Source of the DNA: Arenicellales bacterium
GTDB lineage: Bacteria; Pseudomonadota; Gammaproteobacteria; Arenicellales; JAJDZL01
NCBI GenBank assembly: GCA_958295885.1
Contig: OY282380.1
Span: 4,263,109 to 4,327,108, forward strand
DNA length: 64,000 nt
Direction of reading: 5' to 3'
This document shows positions 28,800-54,026 of this stretch, one piece after another. The translations under genes and the position numbers were made by a program. The number at the start of each line of letters is the position of its first letter. Positions within the stretch are counted from its first letter, which is position 1. The notes below the pieces were generated by a model. That model had not been told where the DNA came from. It ran no database searches and worked only from the letters and a program-made list of their open reading frames with translations.

Positions 28800-31288
28800 C
28801 AATGGCATTTACTTAGTGATAAATACGTGTTGACTTAATAGTACGCACCTCGCGGACGACTGTTTTCATTGAAATATGTTACTTTATGCTACTGGTTCGT
28901 CGATGCCTGAGGTTGATTTCGTTTACGAATCCATTTGTTTCGCGGCTGTTTCGATTGCCGCGCATAGGAACGATCAGGACGTTGTTTCTGACGTTGCCTG
29001 CTGATGCTGCTGACGATGGCATTGACCGTAGAAGCAATCAGTTCTGCCTGTCGCAGCACCAGCTGTTCCAGACTGCGGGCCATCACCTTCAGCGCATGCT
29101 TGAAATTCACCTGTTTTCTGTCTTCTTCGGGCGCACCCTGGATTCGATCTTCACTGTAGTTGGTGAAGATTCTCGTGAGCGTGATCAGCACAAAATGCGC
29201 ATACAGTTCCTGTTTGACGCCGCGTTCTGATTTGGCATGAAACTGCTCGATGCTCATCCATGATTTGGAAATCTTGTACATCTCCTCGATGCCCCATCTT
29301 TGATGGTACAGATCAGATAACTCCGAGATCGGATAGCGCACTGGATCCTGCAAAGTGACCGCGAGCGTGTAGGTGGTGTCGGCATGGGTGTATTTCACCA
29401 GTCGCAGTTTCAGCGGCGGACATTTCACCTGCGCATGGCGGCGGCGGATGCGAGTCCGGATTTGCGCGGTTGGCTCCACCTCGATGATCTCATCGGTGCG
29501 CTCTGAGTCCATGAACCGGTCCATCGCCACGGTCATGTTTTTCTGCAGACGGAAGACTGCCTCCACACCTCGCAGCCAGTGCGCATGCAGCATCTCGTAG
29601 CTGTAATAACCGCGGTCATAGACCACGACGTCGTTTTCGTCCAGCTGCTTCAGATGCGTCAGCGCAAGCTTTCGTTCATTGCCATGCGATGCCAGCTCAA
29701 AGTCAATTGGAACGCGCGCCTTGAGCTGATACAGACAGCTCACAAGTCCCTGCGGATAATGCGCCTTGTCATTGGGCGTGCGATAACTGTTTTTAAGCAG
29801 TTTCCGCGGCAGGTTGAGCCGGCTGCCGTCAACCGCATGCAGACGATGTCCCTGCCACAGAAAGTCCTTTCGCTGCGCTTCGGAGCGCTGCAGAATGCGC
29901 TGCTGCAGGACCTTGAAAACCTGCTCATCCAGCTTGGCGCGCGCCCGGCTCATGGCGGCCGCAGTGACCGGCTGTGGCTGTGGCAGGCGGATCTCCAAGT
30001 CGCGGCACTGCGCCCATAATTCGTCCAAACAGGTGGCATAACCCTGTCGATTGTCAGAAAACACCAGCCGAAAGATAAACAGCATCAACAACATCGTGTC
30101 GATCACTCGCCGCCGAACCCGCCACTTTTCATCAAATTCCGCCGCTACTTCCGAGATTTCGCCGATCAGATGCTGCCACAGCTGCACGAATGAATCCGAA
30201 CTCGCCAGCGGCTTCGGCATTGCTGCCTGCGCGCGTTTTTTGCGCTTCGCACGAGCCTTTTCACCGTGCGCTAAAATCTCTCGAAAACCTTCTTCCAAAG
30301 GATACACATAGACACCTTTAGGGGTTTTTCCAGAACGCTTCTCGGTGGTGCCCAGATACTGCCAGTTGGCCGCCCGATAACTGCTTGCCTCAAAGCGCGT
30401 CTCATCCACAAACGTCTCCATCAGCACCGGCCGACAGCCATGCTGGCACTGCCAGTCCTGCGGCAGCTGCCGACACACCAGCGACAAGGCCTTGGAAGCG
30501 AGATTTTTCACCCGCACCCACGGAAAGATCAGAAACCGACTGTTGTTGACCGCCAAGTGCAGATGTTTCTTGTGTTTCTGATCCTGCCAGCCAACCCACA
30601 CATCCCGACACGGCAGCGCCTTGACTGCATACTGAAACAGGAAACAGCCCAGTTTGCGACCCTGCCCGTCAACGATGAAATAACGCAGGTTCGCCCCGAT
30701 CGGATGCCGGTATCCCAGATAATGATAACGCTCCACCCATTCGTTGAATTCCCCTGCCTGATCCGCAGAAGTCACCAGCTGCACAGAAAGCGGCATCAGC
30801 TCCGACAGCTCCGCCTGTTCTTCGGTGCGCGCCGTCAGCGCCAGCGGCCTGCTCTTGCCGCGCTTAAGATGCGACTGCTTCGGCGGCAGCTGCACAACGC
30901 CCAATTGTTCCAGTTCCTCCAGCAGCAGCAGCGCTGACTGGTAGCGATTGACACCCTTTGATGTGTGCCAGCCTAAATGCTCACTGATCGTCTGCGCCAG
31001 CTCAGTCCGACTCAAATTCTCAAACAGCGAAACAGTCTGTTGAATCTCACCCAACTGTCTGCGGGTAAAACGATGACCGAAAAATGTCGTTGACTTCAAC
31101 TTCTTAATGCGCTCATCCACCGCTGATCTCCTGACAAAATGATCCTTACCTCTATTTTGACAGTACTGCACAAGAAAGTCAAATGCGGATGTGCAATTTT
31201 TTTACATCCCTCGATTTGCCCGCTATATCAATCTGTTGCCATCTCTACAAAAATCTGCAAATACATTTATCCTATGTTAATGCCATTG
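28800..31288 (-). mobile_element. DruA-IS4 insertion sequence, 2.49 kb, intact
   Basis: Ends match as inverted repeats: CAATGGCATTTACTTAG at 28800 and, on the other strand from 31288, CAATGGCATTAACATAGG. Both sides are flanked by CAGGGACGAC (28790-28799 and 31289-31298), a perfect 10 bp target duplication as produced by IS4-group elements. The undamaged duplication and open transposase gene suggest a recent insertion. Confidence 0.9.
28889..31120 (-). CDS. IS4-family transposase with N-terminal DruA (DUF4338) domain
   Basis: About 743 residues from GTG 31120, preceded by AGGAGA; the open frame extends 17 codons further. The N-terminal ~330 residues are a DruA-type domain: WVERYHYLGYRHPIGANLRY, LAVNNSRFLIFPWVRVKNLAS, METFVDETRFEASSYRAANW. 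After an Arg/Lys-rich linker (EKARAKRKKRAQ) comes an IS4 DDE domain with HAVDGSRLNLP, VVYDRGYYSYEML and YHQRWGIEEMYKISKSW supplying the three acidic residues. DruA was first named as a component of the Druantia defence system, but here it is clearly part of a transposase. The frame is intact. Confidence 0.88.
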   Translation of the reverse strand: MDERIKKLKSTTFFGHRFTRRQLGEIQQTVSLFENLSRTELAQTISEHLGWHTSKGVNRYQSALLLLEELEQLGVVQLPPKQSHLKRGKSRPLALTARTEEQAELSELMPLSVQLVTSADQAGEFNEWVERYHYLGYRHPIGANLRYFIVDGQGRKLGCFLFQYAVKALPCRDVWVGWQDQKHKKHLHLAVNNSRFLIFPWVRVKNLASKALSLVCRQLPQDWQCQHGCRPVLMETFVDETRFEASSYRAANWQYLGTTEKRSGKTPKGVYVYPLEEGFREILAHGEKARAKRKKRAQAAMPKPLASSDSFVQLWQHLIGEISEVAAEFDEKWRVRRRVIDTMLLMLFIFRLVFSDNRQGYATCLDELWAQCRDLEIRLPQPQPVTAAAMSRARAKLDEQVFKVLQQRILQRSEAQRKDFLWQGHRLHAVDGSRLNLPRKLLKNSYRTPNDKAHYPQGLVSCLYQLKARVPIDFELASHGNERKLALTHLKQLDENDVVVYDRGYYSYEMLHAHWLRGVEAVFRLQKNMTVAMDRFMDSERTDEIIEVEPTAQIRTRIRRRHAQVKCPPLKLRLVKYTHADTTYTLAVTLQDPVRYPISELSDLYHQRWGIEEMYKISKSWMSIEQFHAKSERGVKQELYAHFVLITLTRIFTNYSEDRIQGAPEEDRKQVNFKHALKVMARSLEQLVLRQAELIASTVNAIVSSISRQRQKQRPDRSYARQSKQPRNKWIRKRNQPQASTNQ

Positions 31289-31669
31289 CAGGGACGACAG
31301 GTCCGCAGCAACTGACTGCCGGCGATCCGTTGCCAGAAAGTTGGCGCGTCCATGGAATTCAAGATTCGACCGGTTTTCGACCAGAAGCTCGAACCGATGC
31401 TTAGGGCTGACTTTATAACCGAGTCCTAGTTCAAACACGCCAGATGTTTCAAAATCACCGACTGAACGAAGAGGCGCTTCGTCGCCGCTAATACCGCAGC
31501 CGTAAAGAGCCGCCGGTGACGTACTCATGCAGTCGCGGTCTTTGAATACGGTTTCGGCCGAACTGTCCAGACCCGCTCCAGTACGCAGATAAATGTCTCC
31601 AGCCGCCGCAAAGCAGCTGAACAACAGTGTCAAAACTGCGACCAGCTGTACCTGGAAAATTCGATTCAA

Positions 31670-32831
31670 GCCGAATTTTAAAGCAGTTGAAACGGAGAGA
31701 AATCCGCTGGTATTTTCATCAACCTCGGGGCAGTGAATCGAAATTGCTTCATTCGATGCTGCAAACGATCGCGTTCCATCGGTTCTCTGATCAGATTCAC
31801 CATCACGTACATCTTGTACGCCGTTGCTTTGGTCTACGTACATCGTCTTTCTGCTATTTCTTCTCATCAGCTCGCTTATTCCAATTGGTTTCTCAACGTA
31901 TGTCCATCAGCAGATTGCCAGACAGTAAGACTCCTCTCGACATCCAATTTCTATAGTGCGTAACAAAGGCACTTGTCTCGGCAACGCGCTTTACTTTCTG
32001 ACCTGCTTGCAGTGGGGTTTGTGGCAGTCGATCCTTAATCGGCATTCCGCCATTCGAGTAATTGTAATTTGTTCAACAGTTAAATATTGGACAATCCTTT
32101 GAATGTGAACTGATTTCTTTTTGTCTTGACCAAAAAAGATGAATCTCAAAGTTAATTGAATTTTTACTTTAGACTGTCACCCAAACGCGGTTTTCACCTG
32201 ATGGGTGAACCTGAAACCGTCCTAGGAATGCAATCCTGCTCCCGCCCGATGAATTTCAAACATTGAATTCTTCAGAGTTCTTCGCGTCGGATTTTCAGAT
32301 GAGAACTTGCGAGAGGATGACGTCATGATAGCAATTGAAGCAAATTGAGGTATGGATGTCATTTAAAGAAGAAGCATTGTGCGACTCAGGATCAAGGAGT
32401 TTCAATGCAATGGAATCAGATTCGTTTCAGACGCATCCGAACCCATGAAGTTCAGCGGAAAAGTGTAAGCCGCGGCTGCAGTTGAGCCGTTCCACGAAAG
32501 AAGGATGGGAAGTGAGCTGCGGTTTTCCTTTGCACTTACCGAAATAGGCTCTTAGGTAATTTCTCTGACTGACGCGACTGAGACCGGCGAGACAGCGTCA
32601 CTCACAATTCCTGCAGCAGTTGCCTCAACTCAGTTCCGGCCGAAAACTGGAGCTGCAGGGAAAAATTCATAATGACATCAGTTCGCTCAGGGATTTCTCA
32701 GAGCATCCCTGTCAGCCTGCCCTTGCGATTGGTTAGTCAAATCATCTGCTTTTCATCAAAGTCAAGAGAGCGGGTTCGAACGGTGATCTCCGCCTGAGAT
32801 GAGCGCCCTCCACTTGTCTCAAAGGGACAAC
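31670..32831. other. Gene-free stretch upstream of the barrel gene
   Basis: No intact gene. The codons before 31669 remain open in frame to 31867 but do not look like a secreted protein start. No RNA or repeat recognised. Confidence 0.45.
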
Positions 32832-33119
32832 TTACGAACCTTTTGAAAAGACGCGTATTAATATTGCTGCAACGATTAATGTAAATGTGAGAATCTGCAA
32901 TGAGATAGTCCATCTGAAATTATTTTTCATTAGTTTTCTTAATTCATTAAATTCAGACTTCAATGAACTGTTTTCGTACCTGTATTCACTGTTGTTGGAA
33001 TTATTGGCAGAACTGCCCTCGCATTGGTTGATTGCAGCCACTTCAGCCTGTTGACTCTCCGTGCCGGCAGCTTCGAGTTCCCTTGATGTTCCGAGCGTGT
33101 CGTATTCGGATTTACTCAT
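32832..33119 (-). CDS. Small tail-anchored membrane protein
   Basis: A 95-residue frame from ATG 33119. The first half is polar and Ser/Asn/Glu-rich, the segment SLKSEFNELRKLMKNNF is amphipathic helix or coiled coil, and ISLQILTFTLIVAAILIRV near the C-terminus is one membrane helix with a short basic tail. No family recognised. Composition is protein-like and the frame is intact, but no homology supports it; regions on both sides are gene-free. Confidence 0.4.
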   Translation of the reverse strand: MSKSEYDTLGTSRELEAAGTESQQAEVAAINQCEGSSANNSNNSEYRYENSSLKSEFNELRKLMKNNFRWTISLQILTFTLIVAAILIRVFSKGS

Positions 33120-33739
33120 GAAATTTTCCTATATTACTCATTCGATAACGGCGACTTGAACTCCCTTCTGAGGTTTGGCTTCCACCAGAAAGACTCAGTT
33201 CGATCACAGCTTAGAGTGCGACTCACATTCCGCGAACTGTTAGTCAGCGTCCGTCCGCGCCCTAGGTTCAATTCCACTGTGCGGCACTGCCGTATGACCG
33301 GATTGAACCATATACTTACCTTACCATAGCTGTCTTTCCGATTACAAGGTGTCACCGCTGCAAGCAACCGCCATGGGATTGAAACCAAATGAACAATTGA
33401 GGCAAAAGTGAGGCATGGACATCAGTCAGCAAAGTGAAGAGCACTTGAATTCAAAAATGGAACAGATCGCAATTTCCATCATGTCCGTGAAACGAAACTC
33501 TATGACAGTTTGTGTTTTCCGAGGGCGATGACAATGCAGTCAACGATGATACGCGCCGACCATAGCGGTACAACCTCTAGACCAATTCAGGTCAAGGACT
33601 GATTCCCATCATGAGCTTAATTCTGATGATGGAATCCGCTGAGCTCGCCACTCCGAACATCACTTTCAGATACGAATGCGGCGATATAAGACTATGTCAG
33701 TCATTGTCCAGTCCATCAGATGAACCAGTGCATCGTTGA

Positions 33740-33972
33740 TGAGCAAACAGCGCGGATTCGGCAGACTTCAATCGCGTTTTCAACTCTGGAGCGTCAGGGT
33801 TTGACGCACACTGCATGCCAGCAACCTAGCTGCCACCTCCAACCATAAGCGGCGAGAGGCACACGACGCCGTACTCGAATCGCTGAAAACCTGCCGCGAA
33901 CAGAATTTGAGCTTTTGGCGCCATCTGGAATATCGGTTCAAAGCACCGAGTTCTTCCGATGTTACACCCTGA
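33740..33972 (+). pseudogene. Possible IS66-type transposase C-terminal remnant
   Basis: Fragments such as NHKRREAHDAVLESLKTC and FWRHLEYRFKAP resemble the C-terminal helices of some IS66 transposases, which end with a conserved helical segment followed by stop. Only ~75 codons remain, with stops. Family assignment is tentative. The rest of 33120-34115 holds nothing I recognise. Confidence 0.25.
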
Positions 33973-34115
33973 ACTCGTCAGCCAGTTCCTAAATCCCACT
34001 GCTCCGACTTGAAGTTCACAATCCGAGTCGCTTCAAGTAAAATTACAATCAGAACAACAGCATGAATATGCACAGCTGCCAATAACAGGAATACTGGCCC
34101 CATTTAGAGATTAAT

Positions 34116-34608
34116 ATGAACGATGCATTGTTATCAGAAGCCGACCAAAAGGAAGGACTTTCTCTCGTCTATGTCAAAGCTCTGGCAATACGGGCGGGCT
34201 ATTCGTGCTCAATACCAGATCCAGACCGAGATAGCATTGACCTTTGTATCCGTGCAGGTGGATATTATCGTCCTCCCCTCGATTGCAATTGAAAGCAATC
34301 GTAAACCTCCAGCTTTCGCTCGCAAACGATTTTCGATACCGATTGAAGAAAAAAAAACTACAGCGACCTGTGTGCGCCAACGCAAATTCTTCGCCTGTTG
34401 GTGGTACTTGATTTGCCAAAGGATAAAGATCTCTGGCTAACAGAAAAAACTTATTTTGAGAAGACGAGCCTACTGGCTAAGTCTCCAGCAACAGAAAAAT
34501 TTAGTCGAGGGACAACAGACAGTTACTGTTCGGATTCCAAATTCTAATCTACTTGATGTTGAGAGCCTAAAGAAACTGATGATTCAATCACGAAATGGGG
34601 AGATCTGA
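34116..34608 (+). pseudogene. DUF4365-domain protein, broken
   Basis: From ATG 34116: MNDALLSEADQKEGLSLVYV, AIRAGYSCSIPDPDRDSIDL and GGYYRPPLDCN, the start of a DUF4365 protein, which belongs to a restriction-endonuclease-like fold. Stops and frameshifts follow. Further on are YSDLCAPTQILRLLVVLDLP and, in another frame, RRAYWLSLQQQKN and TVRIPNSNLLDVESLKKLM, which complete the family. The terminal TGA overlaps the ATG of the next gene (TGATG), showing the two were translationally coupled. Confidence 0.7.
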
Positions 34609-35702
34609 TGAAAGTAAGTATCCAGGATAGGGAATTATTGTCAAAAATTTCAGCTGTGTCGCTTGTCACCTACGCGAGCAGTGTAGGTTGGAACCGCTCT
34701 GAAGTTTACCGCGAACATTCTGATATCTATATTGGAGAAAAGTTGCCGGAGATAATCATACCTCGCACGGAACACCTAGGAGATTACGCTAGCGTTGTAT
34801 CTACGCTGATTAAGACATTCGCTGAAGTTAGCCATTCTGATGAACTTACAATTTTTCGCTGTTTGGAGGGCACAGACCGAGATGTCGTCCGCGTTCGCGT
34901 TAGTGAGGTCGAAGGCGGCACGCTAGCGTTGAATCACGGACATAAGCTCATTACCGGCGCTCGTGATATGGTGCTTTCTTCAGGCTGTTCGTTGTCTACG
35001 CCTCAGTTCAGTTATAGAGCCGGCGCGCATAGGGAGGCAAACGACTTTTTGAATCAGATGAGGATAGGTCACACCGAACAGGGCAGCTTCATCGTTACTT
35101 TATTTACCCCTGTCATACCAAGTCCAATGCCATCGCTCTTTCCAGACGAAATTGATCATGAAGCCCCTATGGGCCGTAGGGTAATGAAACGTTTGATTGA
35201 GGCGAGCATTGCAACTCGTCAAGCATTGGAGCAAACGACAGCCGGAATTGAAAATGCATTCAAAAACACAGTGGAAAAAGGAGTAAGCGCTAATTCATGC
35301 GAAGCCTTGGCATTGATGGTCGAATCATTTGAATCATTGGAGATCAGCGTCTCTTGGGCTCAGACTAGACCACTTAGCATGCCATCAAATTCAGCCCGAT
35401 TCAGCAAGATTGATTCTCCTGTTCTGAAAGAAGCAGCTCGTTTTTTCAAAACACGCTCTCCTAAACTTGACCAAACTCTTTTTGGATTCGTTCGGCTTTT
35501 AAAGCGTGAGGAAGAAGAAGCTGATGGTGACATTAATCTCGCGACGACGATAGAAGAGCAAAATCGGTCAGTCAAAGCAACCTTGCAAATGCGGGACTAT
35601 GAAAAAGCATTACTGGCACATAAGGAGAAAGCGATGGTTGTCCTGAAAGGCGATCTTGAGCACTCAGGAAACCACTGGCGGCTTTTGAATCCAGAAACTT
35701 GA
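34608..35702 (+). CDS. Unknown protein, partner of the DUF4365 gene; 3' end lies in an IS inverted repeat
   Basis: A 364-residue protein beginning MKVSIQDRELLSKISAVSL. The central part has HREANDFLNQMRIGHTEQGSFIVTLFTPV, and the last 100 residues are helical, ending VVLKGDLEHSGNHWRLLN. No catalytic motif recognised. It overlaps the DUF4365 pseudogene by one base, so the pair was an operon; its partner's decay leaves it orphaned. The last codons and stop lie within a 23 bp sequence (35683-35705) identical to the end of the IS at 61191-62714, so the original C-terminus may have been altered. Similar gene pairs occur in defence islands as far as I recall. Confidence 0.6.
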   Translation: MKVSIQDRELLSKISAVSLVTYASSVGWNRSEVYREHSDIYIGEKLPEIIIPRTEHLGDYASVVSTLIKTFAEVSHSDELTIFRCLEGTDRDVVRVRVSEVEGGTLALNHGHKLITGARDMVLSSGCSLSTPQFSYRAGAHREANDFLNQMRIGHTEQGSFIVTLFTPVIPSPMPSLFPDEIDHEAPMGRRVMKRLIEASIATRQALEQTTAGIENAFKNTVEKGVSANSCEALALMVESFESLEISVSWAQTRPLSMPSNSARFSKIDSPVLKEAARFFKTRSPKLDQTLFGFVRLLKREEEEADGDINLATTIEEQNRSVKATLQMRDYEKALLAHKEKAMVVLKGDLEHSGNHWRLLNPET

Positions 35703-35705
35703 GTT
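35683..35705 (+). repeat. Solitary IS end, 23 bp identical to 62694-62716
   Basis: The 23 bases are identical to the 3' terminal repeat of the complete IS copy at 61191-62714, with the same orientation, but no transposase sequence adjoins on the side where the element body should be. This points to a deletion or one-ended event that left only the terminal repeat, and it contains the stop codon of the gene before it. Confidence 0.75.
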
Positions 35706-35994: not shown

Positions 35995-37845
<1,851 letters not shown>

Positions 37846-37895
37846 TAGAGTGCTTCAGTCCATGTCGTTACCTCCATAAACCTGTACCATTTAGT

Positions 37896-43797: not shown

Positions 43798-43829
43798 GTC
43801 TCTATATTACAGAACCAAATAAATTCAAT

Positions 43830-43980
43830 GGCTCTGTTCTTATTTTGTGTGAAATTTGGTACAACGATCAAATCTCATTTAAAAACATAAGAATACACTA
43901 GTATGGATACTGAACAATTTGAATCCTATATCACACGGCAAATTTTTGTTGGACCCATAGAACAATTTTGCACGCTAAGT
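43830..43980 (+). repeat. 5' end of an IS1595-type element, second copy
   Basis: This stretch resembles 24960-25080 in order and sequence: a GTGTGAAATTTGGT-like segment, TTTAAAAACATAAG, then an ATG followed by codons for MDTEQFESYITRQIF. Only ~30 codons remain. The stretch to 44199 has nothing else recognisable. Confidence 0.5.
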
Positions 43981-44199
43981 TTTAAGAACAATGCGTAAAT
44001 CTGATCGAAACAAGAGGTATGTTTGCGCGCCTTTCGTCGAATTTCATTCAATCAGGGCAGGTTTCAATCGGTTGCTGAGCGAGTTTTCCGGCTATAGTTT
44101 GGATTCGGACACAGTCTGCCTGTTACGGCGACTGTGATGCCGGCCGGAGGAGTGATGGCTGCGATGGCAGACGGCGCGTCGGCTGTGCACCGTTTCAAC

Positions 44200-44584
44200 T
44201 CATTGTAAAACGGCCGCGCCGCGTCGTCGGGTGTTCTTGGTCAGACGCAGATAATCAAGCAGCAGACGTGCGTTGCCGTGCAATTCGCGCATCGTCGGCG
44301 CAACCGGTTTTCGGTATCGTCTGATCACTGCGATCGCAAAGCGACGAAGTGCGCTGACGTTCTCGGGCCCGTGCCCGCTGCGGCAGTGGTCCTCGTTCCA
44401 ATTGTTGGCGTCATCCAGGATGCGATGCACGGTTTCGATCGACCCGTGTCCGCGGTTGTAATCCAGCAAGGTCTGAGCATCGGCCTGATCGGCACTCAGC
44501 GAGGTGATGCCAACGCACTGTTCAACGGTTTGTTTGTATTTTTTACGCTTGCGGTAATGCTTCACGGTGCGGCGGATGCGCAAC
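44200..44584 (-). pseudogene. ISAs1-family transposase, C-terminal fragment
   Basis: About 128 codons: YKQTVEQCVGITSLSADQA, RGHGSIETVHRILDDANNW, CRSGHGPENVSALRRFAIA, typical of the ISAs1 C-terminus. It is cut precisely where the DruA transposon begins; the first ~12 codons of the open frame come from the transposon end. Confidence 0.7.
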
Positions 44585-47008
44585 CTGCCTATTCCGTACA
44601 AATTCAGTCTGGACTTAACTTATGTTGATTCCGACCTTCTGAGTTATGGTGAAACCAGCTTCCTTTTTGGGTCAGCATTTGCAGAGCCAAATCATAAGTC
44701 CGCGCCATTGTTGTCAGCATGCTATAGCCTTCCCAGATCTTCTTGTAACCCGGTGGCGGATCATTTTTACGATTCAAATAACCGGCGAGCATGGCCATCG
44801 TCACCACGCCGGCGCCGAGATTTTGTGGCACTTTTTTGCGATTTTGGCGTGCGAAGTCCTTCAATACACCGATTTCGGTCTCGCTAAACAGCACTTCCAT
44901 CGGCAATTCCGGAGTTTCTCGACCCAGCAGCGTCATCGCCGCAAGCCGCCAGGCAATCACCGCGTTGATGGTGACCGCACGTTCGATGCGCTCGCATTTT
45001 CGATGCTTGAGAAACTCCACCTTGCAGCCGGATTTCAAAATCCTGTGCCAATCTTCGATTCGCCAACGCAGCCGATAACGCTGTACTACTTGCGTCGCAT
45101 CGTGCGCGCTGTTGACCGCCAGACTGGTCAGCAGAAACCACTCCAGCGGCTTGACCGCGTCGCCGGCTTTTGCTTCATACACATGAACCAGATTCAACCT
45201 CAGCGGTTTCTCACCCGAAAAACCGCTCGTCGGCTGAATCTGCACCTGACGCCAGCGCAACTCGACCTTTGCCATCCGCGCCGGCTGCTTCGACATCGCC
45301 TTCTGACTGCGGCTGCTGCGCCGCGCCGAACGCGCCAACACCGGCACTTCCAGACTCGCCTGCGCACGTTGCCCGCGGATCGCATCGAACATCTTCGGCT
45401 GGCCTTTGCCTTGACTTCGATTATGCTGGGCGCGCATCAGCAACTCCACATCTGACAGCCTTCGACACTCGGCCATCACCGCAAAACAATCCGCCTCGCG
45501 ATCCATCACCGCCACCATCCGCACCTTTTCAAGCGGCGCCGCCAACTCTGCGCTCGCACGCAGCCCGCGCAGCCATCGCTGCGTCTTGGTGCCCTCGTCA
45601 TCCAGATGGCCATATTCAATGTGCGGCACCCCTAACGGCACTCCCTGCGCATCAAGCGCCAGCAGCGAATGCATGTGAATCCCCATGGTGCCAGCCGATT
45701 TGCGGTTGCGACTGATCAAGCCCATGCCCTGACAGCCACCGTGATTGGCGAAATTCAAATCGGTACCATCCTGCACGCACAAAACTTCCGACTGTGCCTG
45801 CATTCGCTCCTGCGTTCGCTGTCGATGCGGCGCCAAGATGTTCTTTGGCGTCACCGCCGATTCCGCCGGCTGATCCAGCAGACGATAATGCGCATGCACC
45901 GCCGCTTGATCCGACCTGGACGCAGCCGTGAACGGCTCCATCGGCTACCGAGCCTGGATGTCCGCACTTTTCACCAGTCTTGTGCTGCGACGCTCGTCAC
46001 CCAACGGCGCACCTCCAAATTCCTGCTCCGACCATTCATCAATCGCTAGTCCCTGACCTCTGTCACGCACCGGGACGCAAACCTTGTCCAACCCCAGATA
46101 CGTTCGCCATTTCCGTTCTAATTCATAGATATACACCGACTTCACAGCCGCCGCTTCAGACTTGCCCCCAAATCGACCGCGACCCGTCGTCCAGCCCACA
46201 TGGCGCCAGTTCGATGCTCGCAGCGATACCCCGCTGTGAGACGCATCCACAAACGTCTCCACCAAATACGGATCAAATCCATAGCGACTCTTGAAATCCC
46301 TGCCGACTCGACGCAGACACAGACCCAACACCTTCGACGCCAGATTCTGACAGCGCACAGAAGGCCGGATCAGGAACCGACTCATGCCGATCACTCGATT
46401 TAAATATCGAGACTTCAGCTCTGCATCCCAGCCCATCCACTGATCTCGACTGCGCAGCGCCAGCGCCGAAGACGCAAATCCCAGCGCACCCAAACAGCCA
46501 TGCTCAGACACTGCCAGATATCGCAGCTGACAGCCTACATGAACGACCGCTCCTCGCGGATGCTCGCGAATCATCAGCTCGTTCCACAGACGCAGCTGCG
46601 ATTCCTCTTCAACCACCACCAGCTGCAAACCGCTGACCTGATCCACCCGCGCCGGCACACCCTGCGCCAAGGCCACCGCCTGTCCCAATCCACGCGCCTT
46701 TACCTGGCGCACCGTACGACTCGAAGCCGGCAACTCGATCCGACCCGACCGCTCCAGATCCCGCAGCACCCTAAGACTGCTCGTCACCTGCGCTTTGCCC
46801 CGCGCATCGTAAAATCCAAACTCCTCACACACCGCATGCGTCAATTCCGTACGATTCGCAAAACTGCGCGTTGCCAGGATCGACTGCAACTGCTCCAGAC
46901 CAGATGCTGACCTCAGCTTGCGTGGAATTTGATTCTGCTGATACATGATATTCAAATGTACCAGCTCGAATTTTAAAAGTTAAGCCCCAATTTGTACTGT
47001 ATAGGTAG
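44585..47008 (-). mobile_element. DruA/Tn5-like insertion sequence, ~2.42 kb
   Basis: The ends match as inverted repeats (CTGCCTATTCCGTACAAATT at 44585 and, on the other strand from 47008, CTACCTATACAGTACAAATT). A second copy enters the window at 63709 with the same end. The flanks here are different truncated transposases (ISAs1 left, IS66 right), with no visible target duplication, so the element sits at a rearrangement junction. Confidence 0.8.
44604..46946 (-). pseudogene. DruA-domain / Tn5-like transposase, separated by one amber codon
   Basis: The N-terminal part, from ATG 46946, is a DruA-type domain: RGAVVHVGCQLRYLAVSEHG, VIGMSRFLIRPSVRCQNLAS, VETFVDASHSGVSLRASNW. It then reads SEQEFGGAPLGDERRSTRLV, the usual start of Tn5-type IS4 transposases, before TAG at 45945-45947. 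The same frame goes on with MEPFTAASRSDQAAVHAHY and the DDE domain: VLCVQDGTDLNFANHG, VAVMDREADCFAVM, YRLRWRIEDWHRILKSG. One base change separates this from a 780-residue intact enzyme; the two parts could also act as separate proteins. Confidence 0.82.
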
Positions 47009-47314: not shown

Positions 47315-48087
47315 CGCAAGAAAAATATCGATTCCGAATCAATCGTCGCAGCTCACACTCGGGGCAAAACTCCGAACTGCCGATCCATGCGAATGAATTT
47401 AAAACAATGGCCGTCAACCATAGCTTGCCAAAAAAAGACGCAGTAAGTCGAGCTCAATTCATCGCGCTCCCCGCCTCCCGTCAATATCGCTATCCAGAGA
47501 GCAAGATCACAACCATCTGGATCAAGTCCACAATCTGCCGCCGCTGAAAACGAATATGAGTCCGCGATTTCGTCTTGGCATTGACCGCAAAACACATCAC
47601 TTCAGCTACAATTATGGGGTACGGTAAATTCAAAAATCGCTCTCGGTCACAGACTTGGATTCAAGCAGACATGGCCCCGATCATTGAAACCCATACTCCA
47701 GTTTTGCCCCATTTACGTTATTTGGACTTTATAAATTTGAGCGGGTTGAGAATTCGTACGCATCAGGAATTTAAACGGGTTGATTGACCTTGACGCAAAA
47801 GGTAACATATATCAACGTATCGCAGAACAATTTGGAGTGTTTTTCGATTGAAAAAGTGCTGAGCGATCTTAGCGCTAGTGTCTTTTTCGGATTCAAAAAA
47901 GTAAATACTCATAGGACTGGATTCACAGAATTCCGCATAAGACGGTCAAATCCATTTTTTTGAATAAGCAAATCTATGACTTTTGATATATTTAGTCGTT
48001 CAGTATTCGTTCATATTGAGGTCATTATGAAGTGTTGACAAAAACGTAAACTCTGCAGTTGAATTAGCCATATCAGCACTAGCCTCA
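47315..48087. other. Gene-free stretch before the MBL operon
   Basis: Short frames at 47353-47595 (minus) and 47575-47787 (plus) have no recognised domain. The last 200 bases are AT-rich and probably hold the promoter of the operon starting at 48088; no hexamers were assigned. Confidence 0.45.
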
Positions 48088-48783
48088 ATGATATTCCAAC
48101 CTGAAATTTCAGCTTGCTCGATCAAATTAATCGGACAGTTTAATCCTGCAATATTTCATCCCGCTTGGCTTCATAGTAAGAGAATTGAACAAATAAATTC
48201 TGAATTTGCTGGGGATTTCATTACACTTCGAGAATTTGCCCAATTCTCAATCGAAAATCGCTCCTATCTCGTACAAACTGATCGTTTTCAACTTGCTACC
48301 TCCACTGCTCCGTGGGTAAAAATTTTGGATATCACAACTAAAATTTTTCACGAACATCTTTACCACACCCCAATTACTGCGTTTGGAATTAACCACGAGG
48401 TGCATTTCAGGCTATCAAGCTGGGCTGCACGAGTTCGACTTGGTCGAACATTGGCTCCAGTTGATCCTTGGGGCAAATTTGGACAAGATATGGATGTCGA
48501 GCAAAGAAATTTAACCGGTGGACTTCAGAGTTTAACAATGAAGCGAAAATCAATAGTTCATGGCAGCAGATTTGAAACTAACGTCACTATAGAACCTTCT
48601 TCGAAAATTTCAGATGGTACAGGTGTCTACATGCGTGTCAATGCTCACCACTCAATAGAAGGCGTATCGGATGGTTATGGAAGTGAAGAGGCAATGTCCC
48701 TATTAGCAGAACGGTTTGAACCGACTTTGGAAGAATCGGAGACTATTTTCAACACAATAATGGTGGAGGGAAAGAAACAATGA
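48088..48783 (+). CDS. Unknown protein, first gene of an MBL-linked operon
   Basis: A 231-residue protein starting MIFQPEISACSIKLIGQFNP. The middle contains RFQLATSTAPWVKILDITT and HTPITAFGINHEVHF, the later part SLTMKRKSIVHGSRF, VTIEPSSKI and GVYMRVNAHHSI. The alternation of short strands suggests a beta-rich domain. I see no catalytic motif and cannot name a family. The stop overlaps the next start by four bases (ATGA), so translation is coupled. No strong Shine-Dalgarno precedes the ATG, and a later start is possible. Intact. Confidence 0.65.
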   Translation: MIFQPEISACSIKLIGQFNPAIFHPAWLHSKRIEQINSEFAGDFITLREFAQFSIENRSYLVQTDRFQLATSTAPWVKILDITTKIFHEHLYHTPITAFGINHEVHFRLSSWAARVRLGRTLAPVDPWGKFGQDMDVEQRNLTGGLQSLTMKRKSIVHGSRFETNVTIEPSSKISDGTGVYMRVNAHHSIEGVSDGYGSEEAMSLLAERFEPTLEESETIFNTIMVEGKKQ

Positions 48784-49415
48784 AAAACCTCGCTTCAAGT
48801 TTAGATTTCGAACAGAGAGTTGCATCTTCTCGCCTTGGCTCCCAACAACAGCCAGATGATTTCCTAGAAAAATTGGTGAAAGAAAATATTAGAGGAATAC
48901 TCAAAGAAAAACACCATTTAAAACATTTACCTACAACAGAATTTGTCGATTTCCCGTCAAATGATACAGCGGCCCAATTTAACATGACTGATTCAATCGA
49001 AGAAAGAATAAAACTTAGAGACGTTGTGCCGCCTATTGGTTTCAGTCACATGCATCCTAAGTGGACTCGTACAATGACATCCACAGCCGAATGGGAAGGA
49101 TATGTTGAGAGTATAAGTGAAGATGAATTTTGCGTGAAGATGGTTGATGTTCGATCAAAAGTGTCTCTTCCAACTGATCAAGCAGTATTTTCTAAAGACG
49201 ATATCAGTGAATACGACCGACAAAATCTCAAGGTAGGCGCAATTATACGATGGGTTATTGGACGAGAGCGATTGTTAAGTGGTCAAATTCGTAAAGTATC
49301 GGAAATTCATTTTCGGCAACTCCCTATTCATACAAAAGCAGACTATGACCGAGCGTTGAATAAAGCAAAAGCACTCTTAGATGAAGTAGTTTGGGATGAT
49401 GCCGAGGGCGGATGA
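48780..49415 (+). CDS. Unknown protein, second gene of the MBL-linked operon
   Basis: A 211-residue protein from ATG 48780, with GGAGGGAAAG upstream inside the previous gene. The N-terminal ~90 residues are polar and probably flexible. From about residue 95, AEWEGYVESISEDEFCVKMV, KVGAIIRWVIGRERLLSG and IRKVSEIHFRQLP suggest a small beta-barrel (possibly OB- or S1-like, inference). The gene overlaps the following MBL gene by 20 bases. Intact. Confidence 0.65.
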   Translation: MKNLASSLDFEQRVASSRLGSQQQPDDFLEKLVKENIRGILKEKHHLKHLPTTEFVDFPSNDTAAQFNMTDSIEERIKLRDVVPPIGFSHMHPKWTRTMTSTAEWEGYVESISEDEFCVKMVDVRSKVSLPTDQAVFSKDDISEYDRQNLKVGAIIRWVIGRERLLSGQIRKVSEIHFRQLPIHTKADYDRALNKAKALLDEVVWDDAEGG

Positions 49416-50481
49416 AATTGAGGTTACTGTTTTTGGGCCTGGGTATGGTGAGTGCATTGTTATTCATATTGGATCTGGAAAATGGGTAATTGTCGACTCA
49501 TGCCTTGATGATGCCGGCGAACCAGCATCAATTTCCTATCTGACGAAACTTGGCATTTCGATTGAAGATTCTGTAATTTCGGTCAGTGCATCTCACTGGC
49601 ATGATGATCATATCAAGGGGCTGGCGAAGACAGTGGCGGCATGTCGCAGCGCAAGACTTTCGCTTGGCGCAGCTTTAACGTATTCGGAATTTCTTGCATT
49701 TCTTCAGGTTTTTGAAGATCAGCCCGTTCAAAAGCTTGATCGGGGAGGAACAGAACTTTTGAATTGTTTGAAGATTGTTAATGAGACGGGTCGCTCAATT
49801 AAACCTTTAAGTGAAGATACGTTAATTTTCGATTTCCAACCTAACGCACTGGCACATCGGCGGCAAGTGGAACTACGGGCACTTTCCCCTTCCGGTCAGC
49901 AGTTCTCAGATTTTCTGACACGGTTGAAGCATTTTCCAGCAATCATTATGGGGCGTACCAAAGGCAGGATAGTTGAACCGTCACGTAATGATCTTTCAGT
50001 AGCGATGATTTTAACAGTCGGGCAACAAGGTGTCTTGTTAGGCGCAGATTTAGAACAGGTAAGTGATCCAAAAAAGAGTTGGCAAGCGGTAGTTGATGCT
50101 CGTAAAGGAAAATCACCACTCTCCCATTTGTTCAAAGTTCCACATCATGGATCATACAACGCGCACAACGACGATGTGTGGATTGAAATGCTTGATCAGT
50201 CATTACAAGCAGTAGTTACACCGTGGACTAGGGGCGGGCATCGTCTTCCGAGGGAAAGTGACTTGAATCGTCTGCGCCGTCTTAGTAGTAAGTGCTATTT
50301 GACAAGTACAAAGACGATCCCAAAAAAGAGAAGATACAATGCACAGATTCTCAAACAGATCAAGTCTGCAGGAGTGAAGTTTGACTCGTCGATTTACTCC
50401 AGTGGACATGTAACATTTCGTTGGATTCCCGATAGCAGTTCACCCAGTGTTGGGCTATTTGGTGGAGCAGTCGCAATCTAA
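49396..50481 (+). CDS. Metallo-beta-lactamase-fold hydrolase, third gene of the operon
   Basis: A 361-residue MBL-fold protein starting MMPRADEIEVTVFGPGYGEC, with strand-loop IHIGSGKWVIVDSCLDD, then the metal-binding motif as SASHWHDDHIKG (HxHxDH variant HWHDDH), a later acidic position in LLGADLEQVS, and PHHGSYNAHNDD with a further His pair. These residues are those of a competent ComEC/Rec2-like or RNase Z-like MBL hydrolase with two metals. The gene overlaps its upstream neighbour by 20 bases. Nuclease, nucleotide or lactone hydrolase activity are all possible. Intact. Confidence 0.8.
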   Translation: MMPRADEIEVTVFGPGYGECIVIHIGSGKWVIVDSCLDDAGEPASISYLTKLGISIEDSVISVSASHWHDDHIKGLAKTVAACRSARLSLGAALTYSEFLAFLQVFEDQPVQKLDRGGTELLNCLKIVNETGRSIKPLSEDTLIFDFQPNALAHRRQVELRALSPSGQQFSDFLTRLKHFPAIIMGRTKGRIVEPSRNDLSVAMILTVGQQGVLLGADLEQVSDPKKSWQAVVDARKGKSPLSHLFKVPHHGSYNAHNDDVWIEMLDQSLQAVVTPWTRGGHRLPRESDLNRLRRLSSKCYLTSTKTIPKKRRYNAQILKQIKSAGVKFDSSIYSSGHVTFRWIPDSSSPSVGLFGGAVAI

Positions 50482-50816
50482 TCGATGCATGACTGAATTG
50501 TCGAGTGCCTGACGGAATTCTTACTGATTTTAGACTCGCAGAATCATACGAAGTCCCTTGCCGCCATCACCGGGCGACTATGCTTCGACCGTCCTCATGC
50601 TCTTTCTTCAATCCGGTGATTTCCTTGCTGCTGATGGCTATCGACAACGTGATGTGCCCCACGTACGTTTAAACTGACGACTACCGCAATGGCAACGTTT
50701 GGATTCGAAAAATGGTCGGGTAAGTTAGAACGAATATTTGCGACGGTGAAAAGTCAGCTTGGTCAATGAGAACAATGGGGAAATAGAGGAAAAGCGTAAA
50801 TGTACTTGGTAAAAAT
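50482..50816. other. Gene-free stretch after the MBL operon
   Basis: No gene recognised. Convergent ends of the MBL operon and the truncated nuclease gene; no clear terminator hairpin found. Confidence 0.45.
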
Positions 50817-51276
50817 TCAGTTTATGTATTTGCTAATTGAGTCGCCGCATCTTAGCAAATAGATTTGGTATTTTTGATTTCCATACTTAATTTTAGACCG
50901 CCGCAGAATTTTCAATTCCTCACTGTGGATTCTTGCTCTGCTGCCATGAAACAGCAGTGGAATAACTTTAAATGAGCTCTTATAACTGATCCAACCTTTC
51001 ACAATTTCAATCCCATCCTGTAACTGTTTCGCAGCTTTACTCGCTTTGAATTTTCCGCTTTTTAGCTCAATTGGCACTATCCACGAATTTTGATCTTTTT
51101 CTGCGAAAACAACGAAGTCGCAGTTCTTCTGAATTTGAAGACTCTTGACTTCATCACAATCCATATCTATAACAACTCGAGTTGTCGGGCATGAATCTAA
51201 CAACGCACTGCAGCCATCTCTCTTACAATTTATAGCATGACATGAAGAAGATACAGATTTACGAACCGAATTTACC
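50817..51276 (-). pseudogene. Nuclease-like protein, 5' end lost to an IS66-type insertion
   Basis: About 150 codons upstream of the stop at 50817 read CHAINCKRDGCSALLDSCPTT, then VVIDMDCDEV, NCDFVVFAEKDQNSWIVPI and IELKSGKFKASKAAKQLQDG. The D...(E)LK...QL pattern is that of PD-(D/E)XK nucleases and the paired Cys suggest a small zinc site. The frame runs straight into the IS66-type element at 51277; the corresponding 5' part is not visible on the far side. Confidence 0.55.
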
Positions 51277-51310
51277 GTAAATATTCGGCCAACCCATAGA
51301 CCGAGAGGGA

Positions 51311-52162
51311 TCAACTGTTGAGTATTTTCCTGAAGTCCCGGCACAGCGGGTACAGCCAGATATCCTTGATCGGTAATGTTGGCTTGGCGGAGGCAGCGCA
51401 TTTGCCGAGTCCTTTCGTTTGACCGACATTGATCCAGTTCGCAGCCTGGTAGCATGTACCCAAAAAGCGCTGTTCAACGAAAGTCTCAAGCAGCACCGGT
51501 CGAATCCTGTAACGATCGTACCACTGCTGCGGCGGCTCCCGGGCGAGCCTTGCAAGCAGGTGCGAGGCAAGATTGGGACACTTGATCCAAGGCAGAATGA
51601 GGAATCCTGCATTGTTTACGATCCGTACCAGATTGGCTTCTCTGCGCTCCCGATTCCAGCCGATGAAGTCATCCCGGGGTGCGGTTTTCCATGCTGCGGC
51701 ACCGAAGCCGAAGGCGGTGACAATCTGGCGGTCTATGGCAGCGAAATAACGCTGCTGAGCGCCGGGCAGGGGTTTGTATCCAAGATAATGATAGCGTTCA
51801 ATGTATTCGTTCCAAAGACGTGAATCAGCGGGGGTTGACACCCGCCAAAGTTGAGGTGTTGGCAACTCATGCAGCGGCGCACGGATCGGTGTCTGCGGTG
51901 CAGTGCTGTCGGTGAAGCGGATGACCGCCCTGGGAGGCTGGCGACGAGGCGGCGGCAACACAATCAGCTGATCTCGATACATGCGCAGCATCGCCACCCG
52001 GCACGACATCTGTTTGAGTCCTCCATCGGGCTTTTTCCAATCCAGCAGCTCACAGACCTGCTGCGACAGCCGGGTTCTGGAACTGTCAGGATGGGCGGCA
52101 ATCAGTTTGCGAATGCGCTCCAGCTCCTTGCAACTGAAGTCGCGTCCGCAATATCGAGTCAT
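51311..52162 (-). CDS. DruA-type (DUF4338) protein, separate gene in the IS66-like element
   Basis: A 283-residue protein from ATG 52162; the open frame extends 19 codons further, but this ATG overlaps the tnpC stop as ATGA. The N-terminal part SCKELERIRKLIAAHPDSS is the helical DruA lead-in, then YIERYHYLGYKPLPGAQQRY, IVNNAGFLILPWIKCPNLAS and LLETFVEQRFLGTCYQAANW. These positions (YHYLGY, RY, NLAS, ETFV, ANW) recur in the other DruA domains of this window. It has no DDE domain. Its translation is coupled to tnpC. Intact. Confidence 0.85.
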   Translation of the reverse strand: MTRYCGRDFSCKELERIRKLIAAHPDSSRTRLSQQVCELLDWKKPDGGLKQMSCRVAMLRMYRDQLIVLPPPRRQPPRAVIRFTDSTAPQTPIRAPLHELPTPQLWRVSTPADSRLWNEYIERYHYLGYKPLPGAQQRYFAAIDRQIVTAFGFGAAAWKTAPRDDFIGWNRERREANLVRIVNNAGFLILPWIKCPNLASHLLARLAREPPQQWYDRYRIRPVLLETFVEQRFLGTCYQAANWINVGQTKGLGKCAASAKPTLPIKDIWLYPLCRDFRKILNS

Positions 52163-53939
52163 GGCGGCTGTGAGACGGTTGAAAGACAGCCGCGTTGCGT
52201 TGATACCGCTGCCTCGCACTTTGAGATCAGAGAACTGCGCTGGCTGACTGCAGCCGATGGCTGCGACATCTCAGCCCGTCGAGCCTCGCTCATCCGCCAG
52301 GGAATGAAAGCCTCAGGATTCTCAGGCGCCGGTCCGCCATTGGCGGCGCAGGCGCTGAGATATTCATACAGCCATCGATGGGGATTGAGATCCCACAAAA
52401 GCACGCTCTGAATGATTGAGAACATCTGTGCTGCCAGCGAAGCGCTCCAGTGACTGCCCGAGCCGCGGCAGTTCTTGCGCAGCATCGCTGGGTTGCGCAT
52501 CTTCCGCTCCCCAGATTTATTATCAAGCGCAACCTGGGGATGTTTTAAAAACACCATCAGCCCCGACCAGTGATTCTGCAGACTGCTCAGCACCTTGAGT
52601 TGGGCCGGATGCATCTGTTCTGTCGACAATTCATGCTTCAAAGTCCGCTCCATCTGCTCGACCGAGTGCTCAAGCCGCTGCTGTTGGCGCATGAATGATT
52701 CGCTTTGCCGAGCCAACGGCCTCGACTCATCGAAATGCTCCTGACGACGCGCATTGAGGTGATAGATCTCGCCAATGCGCTCCCGCCACTCGAACATCCA
52801 CCGCTCCAGTTGCGGGTACTGCACCGCAGCTTCGAGATAATCCCGCCGCATATGAACCCAGCAAAAAGCCAGTATGATCGCCGCATTGACCTTCGCCAAT
52901 CGTTTGTAACCACTGTAACGGTCACAAATGACAAACACTTCCTTGAGCTTTTCAGACAGTGAACTGAAGTGCTCGATCGGAACATCACCGCTGCGCGTCG
53001 GCTCAATGCGGTAGATCACCGATGAAGTGCTCTCAAACACCCACAGATACCACCGACTGCCGATTTTCCCCTCCATCTTCTCATAGACCTTCCAGCCGGT
53101 CTCGTCACAGTGAAATACCGAATCTTCCATCTGCCGCTGCATCAACTGATCCAACAGCGGCTCGAACAACGGCGCCATCTTCTTCAAACCGTCAGTCACC
53201 GTACCTTGTGAGATCGCCATGCCCTGATCACGCATCTGGCGCAGCAGATTGCAGGTCGAACGACTGTACCAATACTTGCTCAGCAAAATCTCAACCCACA
53301 CCGACACCCCCAGCAATCCCTTGGCAATGACCCGCGGCGCCGGCTTGGCTGTCACCACGGCCGGAGTTTGACGGCAGTTACAGGTCTTTGCAAATTTTTT
53401 CCGCCGGATCTCGCGAATATGCGCCTTCGTAAAATATTCCAGAATCTCCGAGTTGTCGGTGTTCGACATCGGCGCATAGGCAACGCCACAGGAATCGCAC
53501 ACCTGATCTTCAGGCGCAACATCCAAGGTTTCAACTTCACGCGCCAATTTCTCTCAAGGCGTGCGTCCATGACCCTTGCTGCCGCGCTGTGCGCCGCGCT
53601 TTTTTTGACCGGCTTTTTCTCAGTTTTACGACCATAGACCTGTTTCTCCAACTGCCATACCCGCGCCTTTGTTCGCTCCAATTCCTCACTCTGCCGGCGA
53701 TGCTTCTCCAGCAGTTTCAAATACTCTCGGGTTTCATGCTCCTGCTGGGATTGCTCCAAGTGGTAACATTTATCTTTCCATTGTTGAGCAGGGCCCCGCC
53801 AACGGTTCACATCATACTTCAACTGAATATGCTCCTGCTTCGACAGCCTTACGAATTGTTTGGAAAAAGGCGTCGATCCACCTTTTCCCGAATCCGAAAA
53901 CTCCGCAGGTGGGTTTAGTGGGTTGAGCTCATTTGACAT
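52159..53939 (-). pseudogene. tnpC: IS66 TnpC transposase, frameshift and nonsense codon
   Basis: The first 110 codons, from ATG 53939, encode LSKQEHIQLKYDVNRWRG and RVWQLEKQVYGRKTEKKP; the rest, in another frame, encodes the zinc-binding segment CDSCGVAYAPMS, DDE-type core (VFHCDETGWKVYEKMEGK, VICDRYSGYKRLA, CWVHMRRDYLEAA) and the C-terminus (VALDNKSGERKMRNPAM). A run of seven A (53600-53606 on the plus strand as T) would need eight to connect them, after which TGA occurs in KGHGRTP*EKL. Most of the DDE domain is intact. Confidence 0.8.
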
Positions 53940-54026
53940 GCACGATTTATATACACTATTTGTGTCGTGGTGTTCATAGCTGAAGCAAATTTTTTTCTAT
54001 TCGATAAGGGTTGGCCGAATATTTAC

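Follow-up and report, generated by a model that had tools for sequence, protein, structure and literature searches.

The window, a stretch of 64,000 nucleotides of contig OY282380.1 from an Arenicellales bacterium, carries three insertion sequences with a DruA (PF14236) domain, all on the minus strand. An IS4-type element (family B; this copy measures 2489 bp, the element 2501 bp) occupies 28800..31288; it is bounded by the terminal inverted repeats CAATGGCATT and flanked by a 10-bp target duplication, gtcgtccctg, without mismatch. It encodes a 760-amino-acid fusion (28889..31171) of an N-terminal extension, a DruA domain (30341..30820; 124 bits) and a DDE transposase (NF033592, IS4 family, 171.8 bits), bearing out the fusion proposed in an earlier sequence-only reading. 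A Tn5-like element of about 2.42 kb (family C) at 44584..47008 is split in frame into a DruA-bearing first part of 336 amino acids (45945..46955; PF14236, 99 bits), whose end matches the start of Tnp_DNA_bind at a sub-threshold 22.1 bits (cut-off 24), and a DDE transposase part (44604..45941; NF033590, 288 bits; PF02281). The domain claimed for 44604-46946 is present, but this copy is not read in one frame; an unbroken 791-amino-acid frame occurs in copies elsewhere in the genome. A target duplication was looked for at the ends of this window copy and none was found. The IS66-type element (family A) at 51277..54026 retains both inverted repeats (GTAAATATTCGGCCAA), with no target duplication as judged by eye. 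Its tnpC (52159..53939) is broken into two frames, 52159-53547 and 53352-53939, with one TGA within the family match, and unbroken copies exist elsewhere in the genome. Behind tnpC lies a separate DruA gene (51311..52162; 133 bits) whose ATG start overlaps the tnpC stop in an ATGA at 52159-52162, as had been read. The structure predicted for this gene from an upstream GTG at 52219 combines an N-terminal helical domain with a GNAT core. All three window domains score above the PF14236 gathering score of 27 bits.

The window also contains fragments of related elements. On the plus strand, a truncated left end of family C begins at 63709, reaches the window edge at 64000 and continues 6 bp beyond it; because it comprises no more than the element's initial 298 bp, it lacks the DruA core, and the DruA-bearing Tn5-like copy formerly placed from 63771 onward falls away. 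Families D and E are two ISAs1-type transposases fused to DruA at other sites of the genome, each leaving one minus-strand remnant in the window and the rest outside: a right end of family D (97% identical) at 43934..44584, which adjoins the family C element, and 104 bp of the right end of family E at 11751..11854. The limits of the region first singled out, 28800 and 54026, coincide exactly with the outer ends of the IS4-type and IS66-type elements.

Genome-wide, PF14236 has 52 matches in 4.4 Mb, 50 of them above the cut-off, and is absent from all 14 control genomes, which excludes a chance occurrence. Forty-five of the 52 matches were assigned to five insertion-sequence families (IS66, IS4, Tn5-like and two ISAs1 lineages), and the three contexts initially noted therefore hold for the presence of the domain but not for their number. 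DruA is a separate ATGA-coupled gene in the IS66 family and a fusion in the IS4, Tn5-like and both ISAs1 families. It sits inside the mobile units and moves with them: inverted repeats and target duplications enclose both DruA and transposase, and exact duplications were found in 17 of 31 tested copies (A 2/8, B 4/8, C 6/8, D 2/3, E 3/4), with one length per family (8, 10, 8, 10, 9 bp). Of the 34 elements that exceed the curated cut-offs for the four transposase families, 33 have a linked DruA, with transposase scores of 237 bits for NF033517, 172 for NF033592, 288-292 for NF033590 and 147 for NF033564 (family E); the family D transposase is in pieces, the best of which reaches 129.7 bits against a cut-off of 70. 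In two of the 33 linked elements, another insertion sequence sits between the transposase and DruA parts. DruA is under purifying selection comparable to that on the transposase, with pooled dN/dS of 0.23-0.36 for DruA in the genome's own families and 0.19-0.48 for the transposases; DruA pairs from other genomes, solo copies included, give 0.15-0.31. DruA and transposase are not distinguishable by GC content inside the elements. In the IS4, Tn5-like, both ISAs1 and ISAzo13 fusions the domain stands at the N-terminus, the family D protein starting at the DruA core itself without an N-terminal region; the sole C-terminal DruA belongs to copy c09 of family A, which looks like a deletion product.

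Repeated independent acquisition, as the sequence-only reading proposed, is supported by the tree. A single clade with one fusion origin for the three window domains is rejected (p-AU 1.9e-44), and the IS66 elements carry two separate DruA lineages with opposite gene order (p-AU 0.0045, an optimistic value since the second IS66 group was defined after the tree had been viewed). A chance insertion does not account for the DruA of IS66, because all eight IS66 elements above the curated cut-off are linked to it here and IS66-linked DruA also occurs in two other genomes (L140 and L143). Other genomes add ISAzo13 fusions, coupled DruA genes of PF13808 and UPF0236 type, and solo DruA elements without a transposase. 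These results support the view that different DDE transposases captured the domain, a Mom-family GNAT (see below), several times as an integral module. Across 52 contig loci, solo DruA genes without a recognised transposase are common, in a set biased by the use of DruA as query, and hence DruA need not act with a transposase; in the tree, solo copies are interleaved with transposase-coupled ones. Two solo copies, L086 and L076, have kept both ends and an intact DruA frame and have lost the transposase. When the inverted repeats flanking 12 solo genes were compared with the best of 20 shuffles, four exceeded it: L076 and L083 clearly, L074 barely and L085 through a TTAAGGG-type simple repeat. 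The repeats flanking L086 did not, and we call this copy element-like solely by comparison with its autonomous relatives.

For an AlphaFold model of DruA (pLDDT 90), the best Foldseek match is 8bv8, the Mom protein (E 3.5e-6). VIA-align also ranks Mom first, at Z 14.5, with the next entry at 13.2, a lead of 1.3 Z over other GNATs, and in a viral structure library a Mom comes second with an E equal to that of an uncharacterised protein. Profile comparison points the same way: hhalign aligns DruA with Mom over 161 columns (probability 96.4, E 1.1e-9) at a score of 72.6; none of 60 column-permuted controls scores above 18.2, and the reversed profile reaches 22.7. Single Mom sequences score 26-50 against the DruA profile, and single RimI, RimJ and SpeG about 17; the corresponding Mom probabilities span 5.7-91.3%, that of Mu Mom alone being the lowest. 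The best PHROG is phrog_1384, 'Mom-like DNA modification protein', in six of six proteins (from the five families of this genome and one solo copy), with E values of 1.3e-4 to 0.017 that are each weak on their own. Taken from profiles and predicted structure, the homology of insertion-sequence DruA to Mom of phage Mu is well supported. Both reside in transposing elements, and they share, besides fold and profile, a series of aligned positions (DruA/Mom H144/H58, Y145/Y59, N216/N121, S219/S124, E249/D149, Y257/Y159, N261/N163 and G266/G168), including S124, the residue replaced in 8bv8, whose PDB title names the inactive mutant S124A. In contrast, Mom is a separate phage gene, whereas DruA is fused to or co-translated with insertion-sequence transposases, and DruA has an RD..GW motif (R182, D183, G187, W188) with no counterpart in the aligned Mom.

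We followed five positions across 53 aligned rows, H144, Y145, S/T219, D/E249 and Y257, equivalent to H58, Y59, S124, D149 and Y159 of Mom (NC_000929), where we take H58, Y59, D149 and Y159 to be active-site residues. The set is complete in 36 of the 53 rows, among them the IS66 elements with DruA after tnpC (3/3) and the IS4 elements (2/2); the 17 incomplete rows include the Tn5-type (3/3) and ISAzo13 (2/2) fusions, family E (1/1) and the IS66 element with DruA first (1/1), which may be inactive or chemically different. In each of the 53 rows H144, Y158, R182, G187, W188, E245, A259, W262 and G266 are unchanged and position 219 holds S or T.

Membership of the window DruA in a Druantia system is rejected. 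The DruE-type domain PF09369 (MZB), which we take to be DUF1998, has no match anywhere in the genome, in line with the earlier remark that druE is absent, and the same model finds matches in 8 of 14 control genomes. According to PMC7251935, DruE carries a DUF1998 domain, and the function of DruA in Druantia was listed as unknown in 2020. The PADLOC DruA models barely match here (the lowest E values are 0.0018 and 0.0078, and the IS4 type gives no match at 0.01), whereas on six Druantia-like proteins of other genomes they score 268-619 bits in five and 58 in L142. Conversely, an IS core profile gives 191-303 bits for IS-type and solo rows and 11-29 bits for DruE-linked DruA; this profile was built from many IS-type rows, and rows outside it still reach 191-289 bits. 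By these sequence comparisons, DruA of Druantia type is a separate, distant subfamily that shares the Pfam family PF14236 with the IS-type core (DruA of Druantia type I included) and scores 86.4 against it in profile homology as a six-protein set. Druantia-type DruA is itself rejected as a Mom homologue by sequence, its four alignments scoring 11.7-19.2 against permuted maxima of 21.3-28.4. When a set of 18 viral relatives was modelled (pLDDT only 70.5), Foldseek gives no match at E <= 0.001 and VIA-align puts Mom first at Z 10.3, tied with GNATs at 9.4. In profile comparison, similarity to phage Mom is detectably greater for IS-type DruA than for the Druantia type, which would be consistent with an ancestral role in transposition without proving it; that role is neither established nor contradicted, because the tree is unrooted, the alignment of IS, Druantia and Mom clades being too divergent for rooting, and Druantia-type DruA is a distant, separate subfamily.

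Mom renders Mu DNA restriction-resistant (PMC6483171), and a Mom-like GNAT identity alters what the DruA domain probably does. We lean towards a reading in which DDE transposases captured a Mom-family GNAT module that places a mark on DNA; several of the families have an N-terminal helical region ahead of it. Whether joined to the transposase in one protein or co-translated with it, DruA would act on DNA and may attach an acyl-type modification to adenines in or close to the element or its target, a modification that would be put to use in transposition; the transposase would cut and join and the Mom-like domain would add the chemical mark, which could protect newly moved DNA from restriction or label element copies for the transposase. 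The broader version, in which the enzyme marks the ends or fresh copies of unrelated insertion-sequence families and Druantia DruA is a later diverged offshoot, is put forward only tentatively.

Alternatively, DruA may have lost or never needed catalysis and serve as a DNA-binding and assembly module in which the GNAT scaffold, together with the N-terminal region, would grip the ends of the element and aid transpososome assembly. The N-terminal position of the domain in all five kinds of fusion and the 17 rows with incomplete active-site positions would suit such a module, but nine invariant positions and the strict S/T at 219 seem beyond the needs of a scaffold and family D keeps the core without any N-terminal region; we consider this unlikely. 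Less probable again is a passenger, a modification gene that shields the element or the host cell from restriction or other defences and takes no part in transposition. Joint action with the transposase is instead suggested by the repeated in-frame fusions and by start codons that overlap stop codons, and the solo copies that would speak for a passenger, L086 and L076 with their preserved DruA frames and those interleaved in the tree, come from the DruA-queried set; the restriction resistance that Mom gives Mu DNA (PMC6483171) also fits a passenger. A protein acetyltransferase that tunes transposition by acting on the transposase or a host factor is, in our estimate, slightly more improbable still: the GNAT fold allows it, most listed GNAT structures being named for protein or small-molecule substrates, and fusion would supply a local substrate, yet the profile signal is specific to Mom, with none to RimI, RimJ or SpeG, and Mom is the best PHROG in all six IS-type or solo proteins.

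Insertion sequences with passenger genes carry an extra gene within their inverted repeats. The elements described here are alike in this respect and differ in that one domain is common to unrelated insertion-sequence families and often fused in frame. The later paper PMC10853773 keeps to the DUF name and goes no further than GNAT: a GCN5-like acetyltransferase annotated DUF4338 is fused to DndF, in agreement with the fold found here, the partner there being a phosphorothioate-system component and here a transposase. A whole-word search of the main text of PMC10853773 returned no 'Mom'. Among the matches listed from open-licence PMC literature, which are no proof of absence, we recognised no paper on DruA/DUF4338 in transposases and none on Mom in insertion sequences, and term searches of PMC12458937, PMC13192584, PMC8670742 and PMC8136491 gave no match. 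What is new here, and well supported, is that the PF14236 domain of insertion sequences is related to Mom of phage Mu, a link through transposon-borne members that gives DruA a concrete, testable chemistry. It suggests that transposition of common insertion-sequence families could be coupled to DNA modification, hitherto associated with phages and restriction systems. In the tentative broader version, insertion-sequence movement would include an epigenetic step, a chemical mark set by the element on its ends or new copies. The natural DruA-transposase fusions provide material to test the purpose of such coupling.

A sequence search of the PDB with DruA gave nothing usable; the IS-type alignment A2, searched against viral contigs, gave 47 pattern matches, none confirmed. 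At L127, where TniQ, TniB and a Mu-type transposase are its neighbours, DruA was rejected as a further recruitment, being of Druantia type and probably cargo. A plasmid search with IS-type queries returned two records, both from Candidatus Thiodictyon syntrophicum.

The genome that holds the window is a single contig of 4,421,864 bp, with the window at 4263109-4327108, and contains 52 matches to PF14236 (DruA, DUF4338) at E ≤ 0.001, 50 of them over the Pfam cut-off. The domain matched none of 14 control genomes. With this genome included in both sets, it is present in 16 of 299 genomes sampled from the phylum and in 11 of 41 related genomes. Clustering of reading frames, with one copy placed by DNA comparison, defined five families that take in 45 of the 52 matches, the other seven being fragments or singletons. 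Family A (16, copies and fragments taken together) consists of an IS66 tnpC and then a DruA gene, while families B to E carry DruA fused to a transposase of IS4 type (B, 10), Tn5-like (C, 8) or of two different ISAs1 types (D, 6; E, 5). All three transposase contexts named in the sequence-only reading (IS4, Tn5-like and IS66) are present, to which families D and E, absent from that reading, add two more.

DruA lies within mobile units. Comparison of copies revealed sharp ends with inverted repeats in families A-E, bounding elements of about 2.79 kb (A; inverted repeats GTAAATATTCGGCCAA), 2501 bp (B; inverted repeats CAATGGCATT), about 2.42 kb (C), about 2.2 kb (D) and 2114 bp (E). Among copies with both ends found, 17 of the 31 tested have exact target duplications, of a single length within each family: 8 bp in A (2 of 8 copies), 10 bp in B (4 of 8), 8 bp in C (6 of 8), 10 bp in D (2 of 3) and 9 bp in E (3 of 4). 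The window copy of family B shows a perfect target duplication; none was found on testing the window copy of family C, or by eye for that of family A. Counting matches over curated cut-offs, with pieces of one element merged by hand, every IS66 (8/8), IS4_1 (8/8) and Tn5-like IS4_3 (8/8) element of the genome is linked to DruA, as are 9 of 10 ISAs1 elements, the exception lying at 26960-27727. Two copies within these counts (c02 and c39) have another insertion sequence between DruA and transposase.

At 1924679-1928700 of the genome a family C element is apparently nested in one of family E, and a family D remnant directly borders a family C element in the window, indicating that DruA elements insert into each other. 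Among the family B copies at genome positions 30588, 3233749 and 4348649, flanks are exchanged, the sequence to the left of one copy being found to the right of another; this suggests that the copies recombined and that the chromosome was rearranged. By eye, the window also holds a 442-aa frame with a YADD motif resembling a group II intron or retron-type reverse transcriptase (36139-37467) and two similar, frame-broken transposase-like genes of another family in opposite orientation (57087-57899 and 61318-62684).

A contig search of other genomes by two-sequence alignment yielded 52 loci. In 12 of these, DruA overlaps or lies next to a transposase, and these transposases, most of them 450-525 aa long, belong to a single blastp cluster. 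The members tested for Pfam (L091, L097, L102) match PF13808 over cut-off, and L078, L091, L096 and L098 show only weak IS1380 similarity (18-28 bits vs 180). Eight loci are ISAs1-type, one at a contig edge, three are ISAzo13 fusions, and the others are solo (without recognised transposase) or partial DruA. Twenty further stretches from other genomes added IS66 with DruA after tnpC (L140) or before it (L143), a UPF0236-type transposase behind DruA (L128), which we take to be ISLre2-type, and Tn5-like (L129, L130) and further ISAs1-type (L132, L144, L145) elements with DruA. The stop of the first gene and the start of the second share an ATGA in L088 and L091; in L079, L084, L096, L122 and L140 the overlap spans 8 to 23 bases. 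The domain also occurs on two Candidatus Thiodictyon syntrophicum plasmids, one copy annotated as an ISAs1 transposase.

Recruitment of DruA has been repeated. The tree comprises 53 insertion-sequence-borne (IS-type) and solo domains, leaving out 9 own-genome near-copies, 12 Druantia-like proteins and 11 Mom proteins, with 18 of the 52 contig loci and 5 of the 20 stretches outside it and its midpoint root a drawing aid only. The 13 rows of ISAs1 fusions, which include both lineages of this genome, are set apart by a branch with support 100/99; the corresponding values are 99/96 for IS66 rows with DruA after tnpC, 100/99 for Tn5 fusions and 100/100 for ISAzo13 fusions, and the IS4 fusion groups with L143 and a solo gene (98/95). 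A single group of the three window domains was rejected (p-AU 1.9e-44), which supports the earlier proposal of repeated independent acquisition. A single group of all IS66 rows, named after the tree had been seen, was also rejected (p-AU 0.0045). DruA is under constraint as well: pooled dN/dS in family A is 0.30 (12 copies) or 0.24 (6 copies) for DruA and 0.48 for TnpC (4 of 6 full copies, two shorter-frame copies left out), and DruA versus transposase values are 0.245 vs 0.186 in family B (4 copies each), 0.36 vs 0.37 in family C (7 each) and 0.256 (5 copies) vs 0.254 (3 copies) in family E. Family D gives 0.23 (2 copies), and DruA pairs from other genomes, solo copies included, 0.15-0.31.

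The alignment of solo L086 to the autonomous L084/L122 element runs from the left end through DruA and, by eye, the two match again at the right end; L086 lacks the transposase. L076 carries DruA alone within 17-bp exact inverted repeats, with the consensus of the L084/L122 element, and L083 has 22-bp exact inverted repeats of a different type. L122 has the 9-bp direct repeat ACTATTACA on both flanks, within 2 bp of the ends by eye. Because solo and coupled copies are mixed in the tree, the transposase has probably been lost repeatedly with DruA retained; with DruA as the sampling query, the reverse loss is not visible in this sample. At L083:3225-4529 the solo DruA adjoins an oligopeptide-transporter gene, the 22-bp repeats begin GTAA like family A ends, and no transposase lies between them.

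IS-type DruA has a GNAT fold and is homologous to Mom, the DNA-modification enzyme of phage Mu. In an AlphaFold2 model of the 302-aa window DruA (pLDDT 90.2, 37 aligned sequences), residues 116-302 match GNATs, and three helices with two short strands make up a small domain at residues about 20-85, which by the order of its elements resembles a winged helix. Phage Mu Mom ranks first in Foldseek against the PDB (E 3.5e-6), followed by other GNAT-fold proteins, and in VIA-align (Z 14.5, vs 13.2 for the runner-up and about 12 for the group after it); in BFVD second place goes to a Salmonella phage Mom, its E level with that of an uncharacterised archaeal-virus protein. Without any use of structure, a profile built from 37 DruA sequences matched 11 phage Mom proteins with probability 96.4 and E 1.1e-9. 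Its score was 72.6, whereas 60 Mom alignments with permuted columns gave no more than 18.2 and the reversed alignment gave 22.7. Against the DruA profile, single Mom sequences scored 26-50 (probability 5.7-91.3%), single RimI, RimJ and SpeG about 17, and an alignment of these three GNATs 14.8. The Mom-like DNA modification family phrog_1384 is the best PHROG for each of the genome's five families and for a solo copy, with weak matches (E 1.3e-4 to 0.017), and was not matched by a Druantia DruA. DUF4338 is already called a GNAT in PMC10853773; PMC7824862 describes Mom as a GNAT-superfamily enzyme that acylates adenine at N6 by group transfer, with momylation systems encoded in genomes of both phages and bacteria.

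The alignment pairs DruA with Mom at H144/H58, Y145/Y59, S219/S124, position 249/D149 and Y257/Y159. In Mom, H58, Y59, D149 and Y159 are active-site residues. The PDB title of Mom structure 8bv8 reads 'Mom inactive mutant S124A'. Across the 53 rows, H144 is retained in 53, S or T219 in 53, D or E249 in 49, Y257 in 50 and Y145 in 38, and all five together in 36; the window IS66 copy keeps all five and has G at 205 vs R in the other 52 rows. We infer that IS-type DruA modifies nucleic acid, and likewise the site and use of the modification: in the reading we favour, DruA would modify DNA of the element or of its target in coordination with transposition, and the modification could protect from restriction or act as a mark. 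The rivals are that DruA acetylates protein, that it serves as a scaffold, or that it is a pure passenger. The five-position set is incomplete in Tn5-like, ISAzo13 and family E DruA, which weighs against one chemistry for all.

As Druantia-type references (DruA linked to DruE) we used plasmid loci L148-L151 and L153, where DruA lies near a large gene annotated as a DEAD/DEAH box helicase, whose size and position lead us to regard it as DruE. On an IS-type core profile they score 11-29 bits vs 191-303 for IS-type and solo rows, many of which built the profile, rows outside it still reaching 191-289. Druantia-type DruA is homologous to IS-type DruA by profile comparison (scores 57-113), and its alignments give no signal against Mom, so that IS-type DruA links the two. 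An origin of the DruA family in transposons or phages would fit this link, which does not establish direction.

On the minus strand of L127 (5725-13842), the start of a Druantia-type DruA coincides with the stop of TniQ, with TniB and a Mu-type transposase ahead of them. The next genes encode a 404-aa protein and an ATPase that matches mad8 and HerA, and in L126 genes for DruA, a 412-aa protein and a HerA-like protein are arranged similarly. This may be a defence cassette carried by a transposon. PADLOC places Druantia-type DruA within large fusions at L136:5804-9646 and L142:6945-8807, one of which has an SspF-like match at its C-terminus (E 3.8e-12) and one a weak N-terminal resemblance to type II methyltransferases (E 6.9e-5). 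Viral contigs L168-L199 encode Druantia-type relatives, mostly of 390-440 aa, that may be related to the DruA-like proteins of Synechococcus phages in PMC12774648. RDEYIGWD is invariant among 18 aligned viral-contig relatives.
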